From assembly GCA_036273715.1 (NCBI GenBank), contig DASUHB010000044.1, forward strand, positions 1 through 39,917: 39,917 nt of DNA, written 5' to 3'. Origin of the DNA: Gemmatimonadaceae bacterium (GTDB lineage: Bacteria > Gemmatimonadota > Gemmatimonadetes > Gemmatimonadales > Gemmatimonadaceae). Of this stretch, positions 895 through 6,216 are shown piece after piece. The notes beneath the pieces were generated by a model, which worked only from the letters and a program-made list of their open reading frames with translations, was not told the origin of the DNA and searched no databases. A program made the translations under genes and the position numbers. Positions within the stretch are counted from its first letter, which is position 1; each line of letters opens with the position of its first letter.

Positions 895-3392
895 CGGTGT
901 CCGGCCGGCGACAATGTGAGCGACGGACTCACCGGCGGCTGCGACAGCACCATCGAGTCCGGCGGGAAATAGAGCGCGTCCAGCGTCCCCGTCCGCCAGG
1001 AGCGCAGCATGTTGTCGTAGCGGGAGCTTGCGGGATTGCCCGACTCGCCGCCGGGCAGCGTTCCCCACCCGTGCACGTCGGGTCCCATCTCGACGACCAT
1101 GCGCCAGCTCGGGCCCGCGCGTCCCTGGCCGCTCGACGGAGCGAGCGTGCCCGGACCGCCCTGCACCTCGATGTTCAACCGCGAGAGGGACGGCAGCTCG
1201 AGCAGATGGTAGATGTTCGCGTGCTGCACGCGGCTCCATCGCCAGTCGTCGTTGCCCGGGGGGCCGTAGCGGCGCTCGGCGTCGCCTAACGCAACCCGCA
1301 GGCTCGCCGCCAGAATGTCGTCGCGCGTCTCGATGGTCCCCGTGGTGCGCCGGTCATCCCACCACGGGCTCTTCGGCTGCTGGAGCAGCGCCGCGATCAC
1401 GCTTTCCGGCGGACGCGCCGCCGGCGTCGAATCGCCGGGCGGGATCAGCTCGTCCCACAGCCGGCGCGCCAATTCGCGCATCGCCATCTCGAACAACACC
1501 GCCCGGTCGTTGTCCTCGGTGTAGGTGCGGTTCCATTCGCCTAACAGACTGTCCGCGCGCTGCAGCGTCGAATCGTTAGGCGCCCGGGACGCCACCGCGC
1601 GGGCCGCCGCCTCGAACGCCGGCACGAACAGATCCGCGCGCGCACTGCCGGGGTCCGTCTGGTCGTTGCGCATGTCTTCCACCGTCGCCTGCGAATCGGC
1701 GCGCAATAGCGCGTTGATCCGCATCGCCCGCCACGGATCCGGCCAGTCGGCGCCCAGGTACGTCGAATCCATGCGCGGATCGGTCGGTTGCTGATTCGCC
1801 GACGCGAGATACCCCTGCGCAGGATTGCGCGCGAACGGATAACGCGACACCGGCCACACACCCGTCCAATCGCTGGCCGACGATGTGCCGTCGCGCACGA
1901 TGTCGCCGCGGCCATCGCCCGGCCGGATCGGGAACGTGCCCGTCGATCGAATCGCAATCGTTCCCGCGCGGTCGGCCACAAGCATGTTCTGCGCCGGCCA
2001 CGAATACGAATCCATGTCGCTCAACCATGCATCCACGGTTCGAGCGTGCGCGATCTGCATGAACGGCGCAATCACCATCGGCCGTTCGAGCACGGTCCAC
2101 CGCATGGAGAGCCAGCGGCCGCCCGCGCGCTGCATGGGACCGCGATGTGTGTACAACACCGTGTCGGTGGCCAGGACACGCCCATCGCCGTCGCGATATC
2201 GTTCGACTCGCTTCTCGAGCGGCCGCCATGTCCCGTCCAACAAGTACTTCGTCGGGTGCTGCGCCACATCCACCGACTCGGCGTAGAAGTCCATCACGTC
2301 CGCGCCCGTGTTGGTGAACGTCCACGCCACATCGCGGTTGAAGCCGATGATCACCGATGGAGCGCCGGGCAGCGTCACGCCGTATACATCGAGCGAGGCC
2401 GGCACCGAGAGATGCGCCACGTACCAGATCGACGGCAGCGAGAGATCGAGATGCGGATCGCCGGCGAGGAGCGCGAATTTGTCGCGCGTGCGCGAGGGCG
2501 ACACCGCCCAGTTGTTGCTGCCGACGCTCACGTCGCCCGAGCCGTCGTGCGCGGCGCCGGCCGCCGCGCGCATCGCCCCGCCTAACGCAAGCGCCAGCGC
2601 GCCCGCCGCGGTATCGGGCGCGCCCGGAGGAGGCAGCGGCGTCGAGTCGATGCGCGTCGCCGTCTGTCCGTTGGGCACGATGGGCTCCTGGATCGCGGCG
2701 CGCGCCGAGAACAGCGCATCGGCCGCGCGGTCGCCCACTAGCGCCGCCGCGCGCAGACGCCGCATCTCTTCCGGATCGTACGCCAGCGTGAGCCCCATCC
2801 GCGCCAGCAAGTACAGCGTGTTCACCGCCTTCCAGCGGGCGGGCCGCGCGTCGAGCAGCCGGTATTCGAGCGGCAGATCGGCCGCGCGCATGCCGTCGAT
2901 GTACGCATTGATGCCGTCGCCGTAGGCCTCCACGGCGCGCCACGCGGCGCTCGTCGTGTCCATCGCCAGCAGCTGCCGCTCCACCGCGCGCGGCAAGCCC
3001 AACGCGCGCGTCTCCCGGTCCGCGCCTAACGCAACCGGACCGACGAGCTCCGTCAGCGTCCCGGCCGCCGCGCGCGTCTGCAGCTCGAGCTGGAACAGAC
3101 GGTCGCGCGCCGTCACGTACCCCAGCGCCCGATATGCGTCCCGCTCCGTCGACGCAAAGATGTGCGGCACCCCGCGCAGATCGTAGAACACCCGCACCCG
3201 TGCCGCGAGTCCCGGCACGATCGCGTCAGCGGTTTTGGGAAGCACCGCATCCCGCGCCACGGCCCACACTCCGCGCACGGGATCGAAGAACGGCGCCAAT
3301 CGCGGCAGCGGTTTCGGCGGCGCAATCGACAGATAGCTGATCACGCCGAGCGTGACGAGCGCGAGAACGAACCGCGGCTTGGAGGGAATCAT
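891..3392 (-). CDS. Penicillin acylase family protein (Ntn hydrolase)
   Basis: The 833-residue protein has the layout of the penicillin/cephalosporin/AHL acylase family, which is made as a precursor and cleaves itself to expose an N-terminal serine. A hydrophobic segment (residues 8-23) gives an export signal or anchor. The alpha-chain motif RDRLFQLELQTRAAAGTL lies at residues 96-113. The autocleavage site is G291-S292-N-N-W, so Ser292 should be the nucleophile of the beta chain, and the precursor length is normal. The C-terminal block LPGGESGNPASSRYDNM corresponds to the usual GGxSGNP region. The substrate may be a beta-lactam, an acyl-homoserine lactone or another amide, and cannot be read from the sequence. 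The start at 3392 is 28 bases from a palindromic repeat in the divergent intergenic region. Confidence 0.9.
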   Translation of the reverse strand: MIPSKPRFVLALVTLGVISYLSIAPPKPLPRLAPFFDPVRGVWAVARDAVLPKTADAIVPGLAARVRVFYDLRGVPHIFASTERDAYRALGYVTARDRLFQLELQTRAAAGTLTELVGPVALGADRETRALGLPRAVERQLLAMDTTSAAWRAVEAYGDGINAYIDGMRAADLPLEYRLLDARPARWKAVNTLYLLARMGLTLAYDPEEMRRLRAAALVGDRAADALFSARAAIQEPIVPNGQTATRIDSTPLPPPGAPDTAAGALALALGGAMRAAAGAAHDGSGDVSVGSNNWAVSPSRTRDKFALLAGDPHLDLSLPSIWYVAHLSVPASLDVYGVTLPGAPSVIIGFNRDVAWTFTNTGADVMDFYAESVDVAQHPTKYLLDGTWRPLEKRVERYRDGDGRVLATDTVLYTHRGPMQRAGGRWLSMRWTVLERPMVIAPFMQIAHARTVDAWLSDMDSYSWPAQNMLVADRAGTIAIRSTGTFPIRPGDGRGDIVRDGTSSASDWTGVWPVSRYPFARNPAQGYLASANQQPTDPRMDSTYLGADWPDPWRAMRINALLRADSQATVEDMRNDQTDPGSARADLFVPAFEAAARAVASRAPNDSTLQRADSLLGEWNRTYTEDNDRAVLFEMAMRELARRLWDELIPPGDSTPAARPPESVIAALLQQPKSPWWDDRRTTGTIETRDDILAASLRVALGDAERRYGPPGNDDWRWSRVQHANIYHLLELPSLSRLNIEVQGGPGTLAPSSGQGRAGPSWRMVVEMGPDVHGWGTLPGGESGNPASSRYDNMLRSWRTGTLDALYFPPDSMVLSQPPVSPSLTLSPAGHR

Positions 3393-3420
3393 GACGCACG
3401 ATGAATAACGTCGTGTTTCA

Positions 3421-3559
3421 GGCGGACAAGGCCGGACACGAACGGACAGAGCCGGACTTAAAGGCTACAGGCGGACAGGGCCGGACACGACGGACAAAGC
3501 CGGACCGAAGACGGAGAGTCCGGCTTTGTCCGTCGTATCAGGTTTTGTCCGCCTTTAGT
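3421..3559. repeat. Composite palindromic repeat, copy 1 (REP/BIME-like)
   Basis: A 36-37 base unit beginning GGCGGACA and ending GCCGGAC occurs at 3421-3457 and again at 3470-3505, separated by a 12-base spacer. After a 12-base loop (3506-3517) the unit follows in inverted orientation at 3518-3553, so 3470-3553 can form a long imperfect hairpin with 36-base arms. The element fills most of the space between the divergent acylase (start 3392) and lipoprotein (start 3600) genes. A second copy lies at 4320-4428. No transposase or target-site duplication is visible. It is extragenic-palindrome-like in architecture, but I do not recognise the family. Confidence 0.85.
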
Positions 3560-3599
3560 TCGCCTTAACAACTGCCGACGAACAGGCGTCTCATCACAC

Positions 3600-4367
3600 A
3601 TGCGAACACCACTTCTCACTCTCGCCCTGATCTGTTCGGCGGTTGCATGCAGCCGCGCGCAGGCCGGCGACACCAGCCGCGCCGCCAACCGCGCGATGCC
3701 CGATATGCGCGGCATGTCCATGGCCGACGACAGCTCGTCGCGCGCCGAAGCCGGCGTCACCGCCGCGATGAGCAGTGCGATGACCGGCATGTCGCTTCAC
3801 ATGACCATGACCCCCTCGCGGCCGCCGGCGCCCGGCGATTCCGCGCGCGCCGCGCACATCGTGACGACGCTGCGCGGAGCCATCGCCAAGTACCGCGACG
3901 TGAACGTCGCACTGGCCGATGGCTACAAACCGTTCCTGCCCAACGTACCGCAGGACGTCTATCACTTCACCAAGCGCGGCAACGGCATCAAGGCGGCGTT
4001 CGCCTTCGACCCCGCACGCCCAACGTCATTGCTCTACAAGAAAACGGCGACCGGCTACGCGCTCGTCGGCGCGATGTACACGGCGCCGTACCGATCGTCG
4101 CTCGATGACCTCAACGCGCGCGTTCCGCTGAGCATCTATCCGTGGCACCTGCACACGAATCTCTGCATTCCGCCGCGCGGCGAGCCGGGCGAATGGCAGG
4201 CAAAACAAAACGGCAAACCGCTGTTCGGTCCCAAGGGAACGATCGCCACGCGTGCCGCCTGTGATGCCGCTGGCGGAACGTTCTTCCCGCATCTGTTCGG
4301 CTGGATGGTCCACATTACAGGCGGACAAAGCCTGACACCACGGACAAGGCCGGACCGTCCGTCTTAA
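3600..4367 (+). CDS. Methionine-rich putative lipoprotein of unknown function
   Basis: The 255-residue product begins with a hydrophobic signal (LLTLALICSAVAC) in which Cys17 could be a lipidated cysteine. Residues about 33-77 are strikingly methionine-rich with MxM and MxxM spacings (MRGMSMADD, MTGMSLHMTMTP), a pattern seen in copper-handling proteins. The folded part (about 90-245) has the motif WHLHTNLCIPPRG and a conserved-looking end FFPHLFGWMVH, whose His and Cys residues could bind metal. It resembles uncharacterised conserved bacterial proteins I know only by this pattern. The last 15 or so residues are encoded by the palindromic repeat and the stop codon (4365-4367) sits in its loop, so the native C-terminus may have been replaced. 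The metal role is inference. Confidence 0.75.
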   Translation: MRTPLLTLALICSAVACSRAQAGDTSRAANRAMPDMRGMSMADDSSSRAEAGVTAAMSSAMTGMSLHMTMTPSRPPAPGDSARAAHIVTTLRGAIAKYRDVNVALADGYKPFLPNVPQDVYHFTKRGNGIKAAFAFDPARPTSLLYKKTATGYALVGAMYTAPYRSSLDDLNARVPLSIYPWHLHTNLCIPPRGEPGEWQAKQNGKPLFGPKGTIATRAACDAAGGTFFPHLFGWMVHITGGQSLTPRTRPDRPS

Positions 4368-4428
4368 GTCCGGCTTTGTCCGTCGTGTCCGGCCTTGTCC
4401 GCCTGTAGCCTTTTTTGTCCGCCTTTAG
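4320..4428. repeat. Composite palindromic repeat, copy 2, and likely bidirectional terminator
   Basis: Inverted 36-base arms at 4320-4355 and 4368-4403 enclose a 12-base loop (4356-4367), giving the same architecture as 3470-3553. The arm is followed by a spacer with a run of six T (4410-4415) and a partial further unit, TGTCCGCCTTTAG (4416-4428). The spacer here is the reverse complement of the spacer at the left side of copy 1, so each copy is a differently truncated version of one larger palindrome. The element lies between two convergent genes and supplies the stop codon of each: TAA in the loop on the plus strand, and TAA at 4425-4427 read on the minus strand. Hairpin plus T-run suggests transcription termination. 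Confidence 0.8.
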
Positions 4429-4685
4429 TCCAGGGCTGTGACTGTCACGGCGGCCTGCCCATCGCGGCCGTACGTGACGTGCACCTGCCACGGCTGGCAG
4501 CAGACTTCGCAGTCTTCCTCGTAGCGTTGGTCCATGCCGCCGCCGGGATCGATCGCGATGTCCACGGCTTCGCCGCAATAGGGACACACCACCATCGCCT
4601 CGGTGTCGACCGTCCCGTCGCCTAACGGAAACTCGTCGTCGAGATCGTCGGGCAGGTCGTCGTCGTCATCCGAGAAGAGACGCAT
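4425..4685 (-). CDS. CPXCG-motif cysteine-rich small protein
   Basis: This 86-residue acidic protein has an Asp-rich N-terminus (FSDDDDDLPDDLDDEF), then a CPYCGE knuckle and a second pair in EDCEVCCQPWQVHV. The two CxxC-like pairs are spaced as in a small zinc-ribbon and match the CPXCG-motif cysteine-rich protein family, whose function is not known. Its start is one base downstream (in the minus direction) of the JAMM-like gene stop (4687), so the two are probably co-transcribed. The stop codon is at the edge of the palindromic repeat. Zinc binding is inferred from the cysteines. Confidence 0.85.
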   Translation of the reverse strand: MRLFSDDDDDLPDDLDDEFPLGDGTVDTEAMVVCPYCGEAVDIAIDPGGGMDQRYEEDCEVCCQPWQVHVTYGRDGQAAVTVTALD

Positions 4686-4686
4686 T

Positions 4687-6216
4687 TCAGGGCCGCGGGC
4701 ATTTGGAGGCGTCGAACGTGTTGTTCACGTCGCCGATCTGCGATGACAGTTTGCGGAACCGGGCTTCGCGCGCGCTGTCGATGCTGGTGTGCACGGTGCG
4801 ATACGCGCCGGCGAGTGCGATGTATGCATCGTCGGCTCCCTCGTAGCCGACGCCGAGTCCGCGGCAAGTGAGGCGCTTGGTGGTGAAGTCGGCGGCGCGA
4901 TCCTGGAAGTTCCGGATGGCCTGCTCGAGCGAATCGGCGAGCGCGTCGAACTTCTGCATTCGCGGATCTGACGACGGCGCGATTGCGTTAGGCGCGGGCG
5001 TGGCTGCCGGCGGCGCCGCGGCGGTCACCGAGGGTGCCGTCTGCGATGCGGGCGGAGCGGTGGTCATCGCATTCGCCGTTCCGCCGCTCGTCGGCGGCCG
5101 CACCGTGGGAGTCGACACCGCCGTGCTGTTGGCGGGCACCATGGCGGGGGGTGCGCTGCTCATCGACCCACCGGCGGGGAGACTGGACGTATCGCGCGGC
5201 GGCGTGTAGACGGCGCTGTCGCCGGCGCGGGTGTTGGGCGCGGGTGCGGGTGTCGATGGAGACGACGAGAAGAGCCCGCTCGCCAATCCGGCTGGCGGCT
5301 CGATGGTCCCTCGGTGGTTCCACCACCAGAGCCCTGCGGCCCCGGCGCCGATGACTAACAGAAGCATGGCGACGGCGCCGAAGCGGAAACGGCGCGGCTC
5401 CGGAATCGGGGGCAGTGGCAGGTCGTCCTCGAAGAGCGCGGCTTCGGGCAGCATGACTGGCAGTGTCGGCTGCGCCGTGACGCCGGCCAGCGCCGGATCG
5501 ACGGTGTCCGGCGATTGGCGTCGAGGGGGTGGGGGTGGCATGTGGGGGCGACGTTCGGACCGGTCGCCTTCGACGGGCTGTTCGGTGCGGTAGTTCGCCC
5601 AATCAATAAGAGTGCGTTTTCGTCCGCCTGGGAGGAGGGCGTCGTCGTCGACGATTTCGTCGAACGGGATGAGCAGGCCGCTCAAGGCGCCGCCCGGGTT
5701 CATCCTGAAGAATCCGCCGGTTGGTTCCGGACCTGTGGTGGCGATGACGAGTCCGGACTGCCACGGTTCGCGGAAGCGTTCGCGGTGGGTTTCGAGGTCG
5801 AGTCGGGCGGGCGAGCTGCCGACGAACGGCGCGCTGTGGTACCATCCCATCAGCCCGGCACGCCGTCGGCGCAGCTCGAGCTGCATGCCGAGCCATTCTT
5901 CTTCCGGGATCTGGACCGGTTCGGTTTCTCCGATAACGTGACCTGTCCGCATGGCGCTCGTAATGACCACGTAGCGCGACCCGGTATCAGGACACTCGAA
6001 GAGGTTGCCGAGTAGGAAGCCCATGAGCTCCTGCTCGGGATCGGACCGGAGATGGCGCATTGCTTCGCGCAGGGCGCCCTGCGTAATGAATAGCGGCACA
6101 TCTGCACCCGACGCGGAGTCGGCGCCGTTCGATCCTGCTGGTATCCAGTGGATCGACCGCGCGACCGGCATCGGTTTGCGCAACATCATGAAGCCGCTTT
6201 GCATCGGTGTACTCAA
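4687..6216 (-). CDS. Membrane-anchored protein with degenerate JAMM/MPN (Mov34-like) domain
   Basis: The 509-residue protein has three parts. Residues 42-175 look like a JAMM/MPN metalloprotease fold: Glu63 in ELMGFLLG, then GWYHSAPFVGSSPARLD with His127 and Asp140. The usual HSHP of active JAMM enzymes is HSAP here, so the second metal-ligand histidine is replaced by Ala129. A single membrane helix is at about 278-299 (AVAMLLLVIGAGAAGLWWW). It is followed by a Pro/Ser/Thr/Ala-rich linker (about 305-425) and a helical C-terminal domain with two cysteines (Cys461 region and near the end). With the helix in between, the JAMM part would be cytoplasmic and the C-terminal domain periplasmic, a type II arrangement. 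The domain may bind rather than cut. Function is unknown. Confidence 0.7.
   Translation of the reverse strand: MSTPMQSGFMMLRKPMPVARSIHWIPAGSNGADSASGADVPLFITQGALREAMRHLRSDPEQELMGFLLGNLFECPDTGSRYVVITSAMRTGHVIGETEPVQIPEEEWLGMQLELRRRRAGLMGWYHSAPFVGSSPARLDLETHRERFREPWQSGLVIATTGPEPTGGFFRMNPGGALSGLLIPFDEIVDDDALLPGGRKRTLIDWANYRTEQPVEGDRSERRPHMPPPPPRRQSPDTVDPALAGVTAQPTLPVMLPEAALFEDDLPLPPIPEPRRFRFGAVAMLLLVIGAGAAGLWWWNHRGTIEPPAGLASGLFSSSPSTPAPAPNTRAGDSAVYTPPRDTSSLPAGGSMSSAPPAMVPANSTAVSTPTVRPPTSGGTANAMTTAPPASQTAPSVTAAAPPAATPAPNAIAPSSDPRMQKFDALADSLEQAIRNFQDRAADFTTKRLTCRGLGVGYEGADDAYIALAGAYRTVHTSIDSAREARFRKLSSQIGDVNNTFDASKCPRP

Follow-up and report, generated by a model that had tools for sequence, protein, structure and literature searches.

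Paired composite palindromes beside a lipoprotein gene in a Gemmatimonadaceae genome: probable members of a dispersed gene-end repeat family with a candidate GxxExxY nuclease partner

A methionine-rich lipoprotein gene of a Gemmatimonadaceae bacterium lies between two large composite palindromes, which raises the question of whether gene and palindromes form one mobile unit or whether the palindromes belong to a repeat family of their own. The window (the whole stretch analysed, 39,917 nucleotides) is contig C44 of genome G000, which measures 4.34 Mb and is 98.7% complete. Copy 1 (3421–3558) consists of a direct unit (3421–3456) followed by two arms of 41 nt (3465–3505 and 3518–3558) that are 85% complementary and enclose a 12-nt loop (3506–3517); judged from its sequence, a degenerate extra unit head, TTAAGGCGAAC on the minus strand, lies at its right end (3559–3567). 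Copy 2 (4316–4428) has 40-nt arms (4316–4355 and 4368–4407), 90% complementary, around a 12-nt loop (4356–4367), plus an extra head at 4409–4428. The unit of about 36 nt is built from four GGACA words of about 10 nt, GGCGGACAAG-GCCGGACAC-GACGGACAAA-GCCGGAC, and a 27-nt unit pattern matches four times in the window versus no match in 100 shuffles. The preliminary description had recognised the units, their direct and inverted order and the 12-nt loops correctly; its 12-base spacers do not hold, as the spacer between the direct units of copy 1 is 13 nt. When folded as RNA, copy 1 reaches z = -8.9 and copy 2 z = -10.3 and -11.0 on its two strands, both far beyond shuffled sequences, whereas a single unit has no fold (z = -0.95); it is thus the inverted order of the arrays that makes the palindrome.

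Copies 1 and 2 are inverted repeats of each other (90% over 98 nt, 3460–3557 and 4316–4413), with an exact reverse-complementary match between 3419–3441 and 4383–4405; the latter segment had been placed at the right end of copy 2 and in fact lies inside it. A penicillin amidase family gene (PF01804; 891–3392, minus strand) starts about 28 nt from copy 1, which therefore sits between divergent genes. The lipoprotein ORF (3600–4367, plus strand) extends 52 nt into copy 2, so the two copies do not, as had been stated, simply flank one gene. Nearly all homologues that were read continue for another 15–35 residues after WM(V/A/I)H, often including a Trp, and one of them is a far longer fusion; in the lipoprotein of the window, 17 residues follow this motif. 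Copy 2 encodes almost all of these 17 (those beyond WMVHI, from about 4315) and has overwritten the 3' end of the gene and truncated it. On its other side, copy 2 meets a convergent gene for a Cys-rich CPXCG protein (PF14255; 4425–4685, minus strand), whose TAA stop (4427–4425) is flush with AGGCGGACA of the palindrome. The adjoining gene encodes a JAB-domain protein (4687–6216, minus strand), a pairing conserved in the congeners G004 and G005. Gene order around CPXCG differs in G002, G003, and G005, and the junction between CPXCG and copy 2 is common to G004.

In favour of reading the lipoprotein gene and its two palindromes as a mobile cassette, the two copies are far closer to each other than either is to the other family copies in G000. 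The gene also has no close homologue in the congeners G001–G005 and, one Treponema gene aside, is the only control gene with inverted flanks (z = 24.7) like those of the GxxExxY genes described below. Against a cassette stands the CPXCG side of copy 2: the array there is shared with G004 and thus predates any cassette insertion in G000 alone. Copy 2 has moreover destroyed the end of the supposed cargo, and the gene was not seen a second time with flanks of this kind. We consider the cassette unlikely and the lipoprotein gene probably a bystander. The closest relative of the left half of copy 1 is the CPXCG-side array of G004 (92% over 85 nt), so a single longer array was probably duplicated locally, in inverted orientation, to give the pair. 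This comes near the earlier guess that both copies are truncated forms of one longer palindrome.

The two copies are part of a family with 115 matches at about 40 places in G000, where the stretches around the repeats were read and genes were called by ORF length and GC3. At many loci, a plus-strand array is followed some 50–250 nt later by a minus-strand array, producing large palindromes; others hold direct-only arrays of up to five units (e.g., L044 and the cmk locus). Among 60 genomes compared, matches occur in the congeners G004 (27), G005 (17), and G001 (1), with none in G002 or G003, and outside the genus one other genus (G025) has some copies. A GTDB-wide pattern scan returned five stretches from two Gemmatimonadota metagenome-assembled genomes, plus a spirochaete match consisting of one unit in what appears to be coding sequence, and a plasmid search for the same repeat found none. 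The family has spread recently and is lineage-specific. This species-specific distribution, the roughly 40 places, and the empty orthologous sites described below bear out the earlier suggestion of a BIME-like dispersed family and exclude an arrangement confined to one locus and fixed in all relatives.

The arrays are tied to gene ends. At nineteen array ends, the stop of a good ORF is no more than 2 nt away, against about one expected by chance; array orientation is fixed relative to the gene, and many arrays lie between convergent genes. Unit starts read TAAAGG, TGAAGG, TACAGG, and CGAAAGG. For 20 genes chosen because an array adjoins them, C-terminal pieces were searched in five congeners; their stops are TAA in 13, TGA in 6, and TAG in 1, versus TAA in 13 of 84 other G000 genes (P = 2.4e-5). 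This enrichment of TAA at the junctions is why the array seems to supply part of the gene's stop codon. At several of these genes (yajQ, mcm, hpr, L044, L041, L036, and others) the site is occupied in G000 and G004, and in some cases G005, and empty in G001–G003, and the native last residue is kept at most occupied sites. The yajQ protein, for example, ends in FGNYR* in all species; the stop is followed by the array in G000 and G004 (TAA-GGCGGACA), and elsewhere it is TAG or TGA with unrelated sequence after it. The same pattern holds for mcm (EPVFF*), L044 (FMLFF*), L041, L036, L060, and hpr, and at L068 the array is present in G000 with the site empty in G004. Between hpr and ptsI, the overlap TAGTG of G002 and G003 is split by an array in G000 (L034, about 2650–3135) and G005, and the new ptsI start in G000 is likely a GTG inside the repeat. 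A possible target-site duplication (TARTG), the mark expected of a MITE derived from a DDE transposon, appears at one site only, the hpr–ptsI junction of G005; across the sites compared, no consistent target-site duplication and no transposition event was seen.

Such a placement could also mark a selected gene-end element, a bidirectional terminator or a stabiliser of mRNA 3' ends, that evolved in place and never moved. The very stable hairpins, the fixed orientation, the many convergent positions, and L036, where the array stands in place of a 27-nt native intergenic region resembling a hairpin, all fit this reading. Yet the orthologous genes of G001–G003 do without an array, L044 retains its native terminator-like hairpin downstream of the array, copy 1 lies between divergent starts, some arrays (L044, cmk) are direct-only, and insertions truncate proteins and split the overlapping hpr–ptsI stop and start. 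We regard in-place evolution as improbable. The niche itself is occupied by other palindromes in other species: at the convergent L041 site, another array, of GGGGAAGCGCTTGCGC words, stands in G001 and another palindrome, of GGGAAGAGGTAAGAG words, in G002, and in G005 only about 14 nt separate the stops. The GGGGAAGCGCTTGCGC-word family has 27 matches in G001 and 53 in G005 and is nearly absent from G000; the GGGAAGAGGTAAGAG-word palindrome matches three times in G002 and nowhere in the others. Palindrome families therefore turn over between species, and the niche stays. A second dispersed palindrome family, CTACGCTCATGAAGAC-GCGGACA, was seen at L054, L062, L049, L057, L059, L067, and L242. 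Large palindromes (260–466 bp) also adjoin unrelated genes in other Gemmatimonadaceae genera (L087, L189, and L096), which indicates that large gene-adjacent palindromes are common in this bacterial family.

Established arrays evidently change in place. Genome-wide, half of the units are most similar to a unit at their own locus, where 3.9% would be expected, and for 17% this match is inverted; the orthologous loci L044, cmk, and CPXCG hold different numbers of units in G000 and G004, and the mcm locus contains duplications that include flanking sequence. These observations, above all the strong local homogenisation in both orientations, are what minisatellite-like growth would produce, that is, slippage, template switching, and ectopic gene conversion with no dedicated enzyme. 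On its own, this process leaves unexplained the dispersal to about 40 unrelated sites, the junctions inside stop codons, and the bracketing of GxxExxY genes in several phyla; as the whole explanation we think it doubtful, although it deserves to be taken seriously.

Integron attC sites are long imperfect palindromes just after stop codons. The arrays are alike in this respect, and the genome has a full-length integron integrase (G000:C62:115917–116858, L200; 375.7 bits, cut-off 265). The arrays are, however, dispersed and not clustered at intI, the attC-like sites near the integrase (L203, about 6889 and 7754) look different, and neither an RYYYAAC nor a GTTRRRY core occurs in 3401–3600 or 4301–4440, which makes attC sites an extremely remote explanation. 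Separately, the octamer CGTTAGGC/GCCTAACG, which contains the attC core GTTRRRY, has 38 sites in the window (e.g., 3024, 4620, and 4986) versus 0.86 expected from dinucleotides, a 44-fold excess. It also occurs inside genes and could be an uptake-like or HIP1-like word.

A candidate for a dedicated enzyme comes from the GxxExxY family (PF13366, TIGR04256; PD-(D/E)XK). In an alignment, D...ExK and QxxxY are conserved, and these motifs fit the expectation for a PD-(D/E)XK nuclease. The literature searched describes no function for GxxExxY, a sequence search of the PDB returned no relative, PADLOC gave no match, and no GxxExxY was found in phages and viral contigs. G000 has three GxxExxY genes beside three different palindrome families. 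One, at C52 next to cmk, lies between two GGCGGACA arrays, the repeat of the window; the other two adjoin the CTACGCTCATGAAGAC-GCGGACA and AAAGGATGCAAGGAATGGGG families. The protein encoded next to the CTACGCTCATGAAGAC-GCGGACA family is identical in sequence in G000 and G004, and a palindrome of about 500 bp (80% identity; L231, 1957–2456) was seen just downstream of a G000 GxxExxY gene. In G025 (L233), the GGACAAAGCC words of the G000 family lie on both sides of a GxxExxY gene, and at L239 of G004 the array is upstream of the gene only. The GGCGGACA arrays bracket a GxxExxY gene at just one locus per genome. The main counter-example is G005, with many arrays and no GxxExxY gene found in an assembly that is 74% complete.

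The pairing extends to other repeats and hosts. In G002, a GxxExxY gene upstream of penicillin amidase lies between 46-nt inverted repeats. In Gemmatirosa kalamazoonensis, composite palindromes of (GGACTGAAGAA)n and (CGCAGAGGA)n bracket two GxxExxY genes, with two palindromes to each gene; each of these families is present in at least 40 pieces on plasmid 1 and 28–39 on plasmid 2, and a scan of 72,556 plasmid records showed neither outside these two plasmids. The Gemmatirosa palindromes are located 15–50 nt downstream of stops and are not flush with them, so stop-flush junctions may be specific to the genus studied here. GxxExxY genes of Bernardetia and Bacteroides have inverted flanks of CACAGAG words, and that of Sphingomonas, between fabD and fabG, has CGCGAAGG-word flanks (L250, 1974–2402). 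GxxExxY genes are associated with inverted flanks: flanks with z of at least 5 occur at 11 of 24 GxxExxY genes versus 2 of 111 control genes (P = 3.6e-8; 6e-8 without the G004 orthologues), the controls being few and from a handful of genomes and the test having been made after the pattern was seen at some of the same loci. The two positive controls are the window lipoprotein gene and the Treponema gene. A looser palindrome test gave 12 of 15 GxxExxY genes versus 8 of 35, and three of those eight are genes around the window site.

We thus favour, with some confidence, an account in which copies 1 and 2 belong, as non-autonomous members, to a lineage-specific family of dispersed composite palindromes that enters gene ends by insertion or recombination, grows locally, and is mobilised in trans by a GxxExxY protein. 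Each arm is an array of GGACA words, and a short loop separates it from the inverted array. The family would insert or recombine at gene 3' ends, often with the junction within the stop codon (T/AA-AGGCGGACA or T/GA-AGGCGG, the slash marking the junction), such that the element supplies the stop and is tolerated there; established arrays would then expand and become locally homogeneous, in both orientations. In transcripts, the paired arms would fold into a long 3'-UTR hairpin; this would be a by-product, with a possible effect on termination or stability. Mobilisation by the PD-(D/E)XK protein, whose gene has these palindromes on both sides, is suggested by analogy with RAYTs and REPs: our proposal is that GxxExxY cassettes play for these palindromes the part that RAYTs play for REPs, though GxxExxY itself could be a passenger. 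More broadly and more tentatively, GxxExxY proteins may be the mobilising nucleases of a widespread, previously unrecognised class of mobile palindromes made of inverted short-word arrays, in parallel to RAYT/REP, present in Gemmatimonadota, Bacteroidota, Pseudomonadota, and others, and with its own repeat word in each host lineage; we rate this generalisation as possible rather than probable. A consistent pairing of a palindrome class with an uncharacterised nuclease would give GxxExxY a testable function and many orphan repeats a candidate engine, and the stop-codon junction would illustrate how elements land in dense genomes with little harm while trimming or extending proteins.

How, then, does the family compare with known systems? 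Ordinary REP/BIME elements, mobilised by a RAYT (an HUH tyrosine transposase), share with it the dispersed, high-copy extragenic repeats, the preference for gene 3' ends and for the space between convergent genes, the mosaic of direct and inverted units, and the species-specificity (PMC3733652, PMC2817692). REPs usually exceed 100 copies (PMC2817692), and the family here has about 40 places. Unlike REPs, whose units are each imperfect palindromes of 20–40 nt, the units here form palindromes only as paired arrays, and they have no constant GTAG or CGTC head at one end. The RAYT that the preliminary description had proposed to look for did not turn up: no intact Y1_Tnp gene is present in G000 or in six relatives (G001–G005 and G025), and the sole PF01797 match in G000 is the remnant of an IS200-like Y1 transposase, interrupted by an internal stop (L069, about 2830–3040) and not near arrays. 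The family is therefore REP/BIME-like but not REP, and membership in the ordinary RAYT-driven class is quite unlikely. Bacterial genomes commonly carry short palindromic repeats, but a mobilising protein has been proposed for GTAG-type REPs only, CGTC REPs having been described without a dedicated one (PMC3733652).

Both systems include a nuclease or transposase gene bracketed by its own palindromes, the candidate partner here being a PD-(D/E)XK protein; genes of the GxxExxY family lie between word-array palindromes that are identical or similar in kind to those described here, as at C52 of G000 and L233 of G025. As with E. coli REPs, a stable hairpin directly follows the stop codon, and those within 15 nt of stop codons constitute a translation-stalling class (PMC12306157 and its references); the junction here is at 0 nt, and the element appears, from its sequence, to provide the stop codon itself. 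Mycobacterial MIRUs are likewise short tandem repeats inserted at gene junctions (compare hpr–ptsI), but an ORF within the MIRU preserves translational coupling (PMC12548453), whereas the element described here is a long inverted array, and coupling appears to be broken or a start codon to come from the repeat.
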